Part shown: piece by piece, positions 34,222 to 35,116 of the stretch | Numbering within the stretch: the first letter of the stretch is position 1 | Layout: each line of letters opens with the position of its first letter | Assembly (NCBI GenBank): GCA_009841405.1 | Contig: VXLV01000093.1 | Span: 1-64,000 of the forward strand | Direction: 5' to 3' | DNA from: Chloroflexota bacterium | GTDB lineage: Bacteria; Chloroflexota; Anaerolineae; Aggregatilineales; Phototrophicaceae | Length of the DNA: 64,000 nt | Translations under genes and position numbers: made by a program | The notes under the pieces: generated by a model | Database searches by the model: none | What the model was told of the DNA's origin: nothing | Seen by the model: the letters and a program-made list of their open reading frames with translations, nothing else

Positions 34222-34800
34222 TTAGCTGGTTTCCGCCATCTTCTTGATCAGCGCGAGCGTCATCCTGGCGTCGTCGAGCGCGTCATGGGCTTTCATCAGG
34301 GCCAGGCCCTCTTGGCGCATGGCATTGCCGAGCTTGTGCGGGGTGTAATTGCGACCCTGCTTGCCGCGAGCGCCCTTGTAGCGGGCGTACTGTTTCATGG
34401 CGCAGTGGCGCTTGCCCAGGCGCAAGTCCGGCAGGCGATAGCGCGCGGCGGTTTGCTGCAGCATGCGCCAGTCGAAGTCCATGTTGTATGCCACTACCAC
34501 CTGGCCGGCCAGCAGCGCCGACAAGCGAATGTAGACTTGTTTGAAGCTGGGGGCGGCGGCCACATCGCGGTCGAAAAATCCATGCACGGCCGACGCGCCG
34601 GCGGGGATGGGAATGGTCGGCTTGATGAGCTGATTCAAGACCGTTGCGCCATCATGGTCGATAATACCGATTTGCACGATTTCGTCGGTCGCGCTCAAGC
34701 CGGTGGTTTCAGTATCGAGCACGAAATATGGACGGCGGAGCAGATTCTGCGCCCATTGAATCGCTTGCCGGCGGTGCGCCGGGTGGTAGTGCCTGGTCAA
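34222..34800 (-). CDS. DnaQ-like 3'-5' exonuclease (DEDDh)
   Basis: Exonuclease-fold protein of 192 residues. Exo I is FVLDTETTGL with the two acidic residues. Exo II is VVAYNMDFDWRML and Exo III is AHDALDDARMTLAL, with the His and Asp of the DEDDh type. Such stand-alone proteins may proofread for a polymerase or trim RNA or DNA; the target is not clear. The track start is a TTG with weak support. A + strand RNA gene begins 130 nt beyond its start. Confidence 0.85.
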   Translation of the reverse strand: MTRHYHPAHRRQAIQWAQNLLRRPYFVLDTETTGLSATDEIVQIGIIDHDGATVLNQLIKPTIPIPAGASAVHGFFDRDVAAAPSFKQVYIRLSALLAGQVVVAYNMDFDWRMLQQTAARYRLPDLRLGKRHCAMKQYARYKGARGKQGRNYTPHKLGNAMRQEGLALMKAHDALDDARMTLALIKKMAETS

Positions 34801-34892: not shown

Positions 34893-34921
34893 TTGCATAA
34901 TCAGCCTGGCCGTGTTATGCT
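34893..34921 (+). promoter_or_regulatory. Promoter of the structured RNA unit
   Basis: TTGCAT and TATGCT are separated by exactly 17 nt, and TGT precedes the -10 as an extended element. Transcription would start near 34928. No protein gene on this strand starts between here and 38303. Confidence 0.6.
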
Positions 34922-34959
34922 GTGCCCATCGTCGGACGAGTAAAGGAGGTGATTTGATC

Positions 34960-34989
34960 ATGTTAGGTTCTAAGGGGGCTACCCTCTAA
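34960..34989 (+). CDS. Nine-codon ORF inside the structured RNA
   Basis: ATG to TAA encodes MLGSKGATL. The Shine-Dalgarno AAAGGAGGTGAT ends 6 nt upstream, an unusually strong site for such a short frame. The stop codon (34987-34989) lies within the 5' strand of the long-range helix. A terminating ribosome would cover that strand and change the fold. Whether the peptide matters or only ribosome occupancy is unknown. Confidence 0.5.
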   Translation: MLGSKGATL

Positions 34990-35076
34990 CCGATTCACAC
35001 CTCTAGTTCACTCCACTGACGTGGATCTCGTTAGAGGGTGAACCCGAAAACCGCAAGACTGTGATTTTGACAGTCG

Positions 35077-35116
35077 AGGGGCCGCAGACTAATCCTCTGC
35101 GGCCTCTTTTCTTTTT
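35077..35116 (+). terminator. Terminator of the structured RNA
   Basis: AGGGGCCGCAGA pairs with TCTGCGGCCTCT (12 bp including one G-T) around a 7-nt loop, followed by TTTCTTTTTG. The stop codon of the convergent minus-strand acetyltransferase lies in the loop. Confidence 0.9.

Follow-up and report, generated by a model that had tools for sequence, protein, structure and literature searches.

A previously unclassified, single-copy RNA gene in an order of Chloroflexota, with an extended Shine-Dalgarno sequence and a mini-ORF that ends inside its main helix

What might a small RNA do that offers the ribosome a 12-nt match to the 3' tail of 16S rRNA, encodes nine codons and then terminates, with no gene following on its strand? 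The question is raised by one locus in the 64,000-nucleotide stretch of Chloroflexota DNA that was analysed here (the window). The sequence-only reading of this DNA had described a stand-alone RNA, neither leader nor UTR and not recognised as a known class, whose ORF ends within a long-range helix that competes with a local hairpin. It had also proposed looking for Rfam matches, for homologues, and for covariation between 34981-34990 and 35030-35039. The features of the locus as we now map them are these:

34893-34921, + strand: promoter from sequence, TTGCAT (34893-34898), 17-nt spacer and TATGCT (34916-34921), with a TG-extended -10 (TG at 34913-34914)
34928-35110, + strand: structured RNA, its start inferred from the promoter position, its end set at the terminator U-tract
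34942-34953, + strand: extended Shine-Dalgarno (SD) AAAGGAGGTGAT, a 12-nt anti-SD match, from sequence, uniqueness and match lengths in homologues
34960-34989, + strand: 9-codon mini-ORF, ATG TTA GGT TCT AAG GGG GCT ACC CTC TAA, encoding MLGSKGATL, with its stop TAA at 34987-34989
34966-34969, + strand: 5' strand of helix P1b, GGUU, codons 3-4, from covariation
34974-34986, + strand: local hairpin GGGGG-CUA-CCCUC (34974-34978:34982-34986), -6.0 kcal/mol, a rival of P1 for the 5' strand
34975-34990, + strand: 5' strand of helix P1, GGG (34975-34977) and UACCCUCUAAC (34980-34990), carrying the ORF end and stop codon, from covariation and the MFE fold
34998-35003, + strand: internal anti-SD mimic CACCUC in the P2 region, complement of the SD segment GAGGUG (34946-34951)
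35030-35045, + strand: 3' strand of P1, GUUAGAGGGUG (35030-35040) and CCC (35043-35045), from covariation and the MFE fold
35049-35052, + strand: 3' strand of P1b, AACC, from covariation
35057-35075, + strand: small hairpin P3 (GACUGU...ACAGUC), missing in some genera
35076-35116, + strand: terminator, a hairpin at 35076-35108 with loop CUAAUCC and then a T-rich tail, from covariation and sequence

Each element that had been claimed was recovered: the promoter is present just as described, the terminator corresponds to the hairpin at about 35076-35108 with its T-rich stretch, and the anti-SD match and the 9-codon ORF lie at 34942-34953 and 34960-34989. The promoter is also recognizable in relatives, with the TG extension in 56 of 79 homologues and a distance of 9 nt from the -10 box to the first modelled base in 58 of the same 79; the position of this box is the reason for placing the 5' end near 34928. 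The RNA of the window folds with z = -4.05, and none of 200 dinucleotide shuffles was equally stable. At the other end the terminator overlaps the 3' end of a convergent GNAT ORF, which stops at 35089. The terminator loop CUAAUCC (35089-35095) is nearly invariant across the genus, while order-wide roughly half of the sequences do not keep the motif; CUAA- or GACUCUAC-type loops do reappear elsewhere in the order, which is odd for a plain terminator loop. As a separate observation, confined to the genus and a few other members, ACCGCAAGACU ahead of P3 (35050-35060) is nearly a copy of ACCGCAGACU in the terminator 5' strand (35082-35090), giving the terminator 3' strand, in principle, a choice of two partners.

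The homologue search found related copies throughout the genus and across the order, with compensatory changes in the helices. By DNA search there is one copy per genome in 34 of 34 genus genomes, plus one in another genus. Covariance models matched 66 and then 97 of 154 order genomes (E<=0.001). By our own count from the covariance search, 89 of the 98 genomes of the window's family match, and several of the non-matching ones are incomplete assemblies; a single genome has one more match, which is partial and lies at the end of a contig. Judged by its sequence, this is a previously unclassified RNA gene, single-copy across the order. Its spread over the order, and further over the phylum, had escaped the sequence-only reading, as had the internal anti-SD mimic.

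The genes around the RNA change from genus to genus. Downstream in the window is the convergent GNAT acetyltransferase gene on the - strand, and beyond it a trypsin/PDZ (HtrA-like) protease; upstream is a divergent RNase_T-family (DnaQ-like) exonuclease (34222-34800, - strand). Most relatives likewise have a convergent gene downstream, and where a gene does follow on the same strand, these followers are mutually unrelated (a DNA methylase, an FAD/Fe-S protein, a kinase-STAND protein). Comparing the window with its relatives, we found no consistent same-strand gene 3' of the RNA. Given the varying neighbours, the mostly convergent downstream genes and the unrelated same-strand followers, we regard the RNA as a free-standing gene, and the claim that it is neither a leader nor a UTR stands. 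The exonuclease neighbour is common to 22 genus loci and is not retained in other genera; a link to RNA turnover is possible. In five genus genomes (L013, L026-L029) a same-strand gene pair lies directly past the terminator, displacing the GNAT gene. The pair in L027 (1160-2958, - strand) consists of an N6/N4 DNA methylase and a NotI-like restriction endonuclease, apparently a restriction-modification insertion, and L026 (3359-5235, + strand) has the same arrangement.

The core helix 34981-34990:35030-35039 is fully complementary in the window, the stop codon at 34987-34989 does lie within its 5' strand, and the covariation check that had been proposed for it revealed strong compensatory changes. 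Because the alignment of 84 distinct sequences was fitted to a model of this same structure, its pairing percentages are inflated; read with that in mind, P1b, P1, P3 and the terminator together have 90.4% of cells paired, with 76% in P1b (3/3 modelled pairs compensated, by GC, AU, GU, CG and UA types), 90.5% in P3 where it is present (5/5 pairs compensated) and 97% in the terminator (12/12), and slid controls drop to 37-48%. Every pair of P1 is compensated across the order. In total a compensatory change was found in all 34 pairs, with 562 double-change cells against 134.5 in shuffles, although the sequences of the order are related and neither these pairing counts nor the ORF counts below are independent events. 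The same helices, with 9 compensated pairs, also emerged from an independent MAFFT alignment of the genus with one outgroup.

The competing local hairpin exists as well, at 34974-34978:34982-34986. In 60 of 62 homologues the corresponding segment forms its own local hairpin of <=-2 kcal/mol, modestly better than shuffles (of which a median of 13% are as stable), while the long-range P1 duplex is more stable than two local hairpins together in all 62. Two further pairings were noticed in several genera by visual inspection: the 3' half of the SD could pair with codons 3-4 (GUGAUC:GGUCAU), rivalling P1b, and the 5' end could pair with the region past P1 (L078, L083, L086). A third candidate, GGGUUAG:CUAACCC between the 5' leader and the terminator loop, is perfect in L078 but was dropped, being inconsistent by eye among members.

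Within this structure the reading frame is kept. An ORF of 9-13 codons stands at SD distance in 77 of 80 homologues, against 4.7 in dinucleotide shuffles, or 13.0 when the start region is kept. The start is ATG, GTG or TTG, each of the three stop codons is used, and many genera share the same length classes and stop codons. The distance from the start codon to the GGG of P1 is 14, 17, 20 or 23 nt, with 60 of 64 in one phase, and the distance from GGG to the stop is 13, 16 or 19 nt, again in 60 of 64; the distance from the SD to GGG is scattered over the phases (27/19/18). Since phase is kept on both sides of GGG within the ORF and is not kept from the SD, indels inside the ORF must be codon-sized. 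Sequence conservation thus strongly supports both the existence of the RNA gene and translation of its mini-ORF.

The encoded peptides diverge strongly (MLGHKGVSPN, MKNETMVRVQT, MFSRSHKGATP). Length and frame persist while the peptides vary, which suggests that the act of translation outweighs the peptide. The order peptides do share a recurring [HS]-[KM]-G-[VA] core, much of which coincides with paired P1 nucleotides. Among good matches L104 alone clearly breaks the length rule: compared with L106 and L165 of the same genus, it has lost the usual stop (CGC CAG for CGC TAG), giving an ORF of 21 codons. Immediately before the stop, 34 of the 77 mini-ORFs encode Leu and 16 encode Pro; a C-terminal Pro slows termination.

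The extended SD is as distinctive as the frame. In the whole 4.24-Mb genome this RNA gene has the only copy of the 12-mer AARGGAGGTGAT. Matches to the 16S tail in homologues are typically 10-15 nt, most commonly 11-13, and reach at least 10 nt in 72 of 84 sequences, the longest taking in the entire tail. The tail used for this matching, GGATCACCTCCTTTC, was read from relatives, the window's own assembly being without a 16S gene; same-order relatives have the expected tail GGATCACCTCCTTTCTA.

The RNA also appears to carry its own rival for this SD. A copy of the 16S tail of at least 6 nt is found in the P2 region of 55 of 80 homologues, where about 12.6 would be expected; in the window it is the mimic CACCUC at 34998-35003. 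For the window RNA the P1 fold, which leaves the SD free, is predicted at -73.1 kcal/mol (pair probability 0.37) and the fold with the SD:anti-SD pairing at -72.6 kcal/mol (0.62). The two predicted folds are thus almost isoenergetic, and nested folding treats P1 and the SD:anti-SD pairing as exclusive, where a pseudoknot with both formed is possible. Among homologues, SDs are predicted to be accessible to an intermediate and varying degree (mean unpaired 0.53), not clearly different from that of ordinary genes with the same SD. The mimic may also be a by-product of hairpin P2.

What, then, is the partner of this RNA? Its most constant sequence beyond plain helix strands is the complement of the 16S tail, and since the other strands drift together with their partners, a constant partner in trans would be the 16S 3' tail. 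The evidence, which is comparative throughout, favours ribosome-directed readings over pairing with a conserved mRNA target. The RNA may sense ribosomes, park them or act on mRNAs. The reading that we prefer, tentatively, is a translated, ribosome-gated RNA switch whose only constant partner is the ribosome. In the P1 fold the SD would be free and a 30S subunit could dock by up to 15 base pairs; in the alternative fold the internal mimic would close the SD. A docked or translating ribosome would displace the mimic and open P1 up to the stop codon; the fold of the RNA, and probably its lifetime too, would then report or buffer the availability of ribosomes or the state of translation.

Several other readings draw on the same features. 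The RNA might be a dual-function regulatory sRNA, in which a ribosome translating the mini-ORF would unfold P1 and free C-rich strands (the CUCC-type P1 3' strand, CACCUC of P2 and the terminator loop) to pair with the SDs of target mRNAs. Such anti-SD-like strands do exist: the P2 CACCUC is found in most homologues, and CUCCC-type P1 3' strands together with a conserved terminator loop CUAAYCC are found in the genus and some other genera. However, the strands of P1 and P2 change along with their partners order-wide, which is unexpected if mRNA targets were fixed, and the loop motif is absent from about half of the sequences; we consider this reading rather unlikely. The clear conservation of the reading frame could instead mark an mRNA for a functional micropeptide, its translation merely controlled by the structure, and the shared peptide core of the order, like the MDSSHC/MNDSSHC starts seen elsewhere in the phylum, fits that idea. 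Peptides of 9-12 residues that are very variable between genera, accompanied by neither export nor partner genes, and whose common core largely overlaps paired P1 nucleotides, make it improbable, and the SD match goes far beyond what translation needs.

Anatomy alone might also suggest a toxic or regulatory minigene, in which abortive rounds on the tiny ORF capture ribosomes and tRNA and the structure only stabilises the transcript. Toxic minigenes are typically 2-5 codons long, a size that the ORF here exceeds, and both the elaborate conserved helix and the anti-SD mimic would be superfluous in one. The combination of a strong SD with a short ORF is nevertheless the minigene layout (compare PMC8708949), and 50 of 77 peptides end in Leu or Pro; on balance we give this reading little credence. 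Finally, SD, short ORF, alternative hairpins and terminator together have the anatomy of a leader or attenuator. With the gene beyond mostly convergent and the same-strand followers unrelated, no conserved gene follows for it to control, and on this ground we reject a leader of a downstream gene as highly improbable.

The ribosome-gated switch that we prefer also draws support from divergent RNAs of similar design elsewhere in the phylum. Our models are weak outside the order's main families, although clear thematic relatives were found: L179 and L187 in the same class, L180 in a further family of the order, and L139, L171, L172, L175 and L177 in the rest of the phylum. Other model matches, in the phylum (L173, L176) and the class (L181-L186), look like chance or ordinary genes. 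The pattern of AAAGGAGGTGAT followed by a start codon was matched in 67 of 149 phylum genomes, whereas the reversed pattern gave only 4 hits. We examined 40 extended-SD loci of the phylum, a selection biased to recurring motifs, and by our reading 31 of these 40 combine hairpins and a terminator-like stem with a short ORF, of 14-28 codons in all but one, which has 43; the remaining 9 lack the theme and are mostly ordinary protein genes. Scanning named genomes, a set in which close relatives of the window's own genome may be missing, for the pattern yielded 12 matches, all of them ordinary genes or chance, and none convincingly fits the model.

Many of the phylum variants begin with a Ser/Cys-rich stretch such as MDSSHC or MNDSSHC. 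In L240, L241 and L250 a copy of the 16S tail lies inside the ORF and pairs with the SD over 11-12 nt. In L228, L229 and L230 a second SD-like sequence, GGAGGTGA, occurs within the mini-ORF, and the ORFs of the order have GGUGGAGGUG or AAGGGGGUG; such a motif might pause the translating ribosome. Because the anatomy is shared, homology of these variants to the order RNA is likely. More speculatively, and with some doubt on our part, the whole set could represent a phylum-wide housekeeping RNA, whose overlong SD would read the full 16S tail in rivalry with the RNA's own copy of it. Such an RNA would sense or buffer free small subunits, and its throw-away mini-ORF would let translation reset the fold.

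The locus adds to the phylum a deeply conserved single-copy RNA gene outside Rfam whose conservation points to the ribosome. Were the proposed mechanism true, bacteria would have an RNA that mimics the 16S tail and thereby monitors or buffers ribosomes at initiation, and the locus would be a clean case of an ORF kept for being translated and not for its peptide. The locus also opens translation control to concrete tests in a phylum that is large and poorly studied.

How does this RNA compare with known classes? The suggestion that it falls outside them agrees with the Rfam search: no family of Rfam 15 reached its gathering threshold in the whole window and 37 related loci. Our literature search, which covered open papers, found no published description. 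The best Rfam score was that of BjrC68 (RF02353), at 24.6 bits against a cut-off of 39, covering only the 3' hairpins, essentially the terminator; a sub-threshold match to CsrC was likewise limited to 3' hairpins, and both were set aside. The RNA resembles 6S RNA in its similar length and in being single-copy and free-standing, but its fold is different and 6S RNA has no such ORF; moreover the window has no RF00013 match, and 15 of 16 genomes tested have a separate 6S gene (G000: C32), so we rejected this identity also.

With leader-peptide attenuators and inducible leaders of the trp and erm type it shares the SD, the short ORF, competing hairpins that translation would switch, and the terminator. 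A conserved short frame and competing folds are thus present, whereas a regulated same-strand gene is absent; here, moreover, the ORF end and stop lie within the long helix, and the RNA is free-standing and single-copy across the order. SgrS, RNAIII and SR1 are dual-function sRNAs, and like them this is a free-standing, terminated RNA with a short ORF (here known by sequence conservation), but its ORF is much shorter, its frame is kept over its sequence and its 16S match is maximal; in this RNA we found no conserved target-like sequence. The nearest published anatomy that we found is that of yfr6, or Downstream-peptide RNA, of cyanobacteria, a short RNA with a short ORF and a conserved structure, there a 5' UTR ahead of that ORF (PMC2864571); here the ORF itself forms half of the main helix. 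Minigenes, such as that in axe-txe, combine a strong SD with a very short ORF (PMC8708949), a layout seen here in the 10-15-nt SD match and 9-13 codons, to which this RNA adds its own transcript, an order-wide conserved fold and an anti-SD mimic. Antisense action, if found, would make it a variant of the dual-function sRNAs; as it stands, no known class combines these features.
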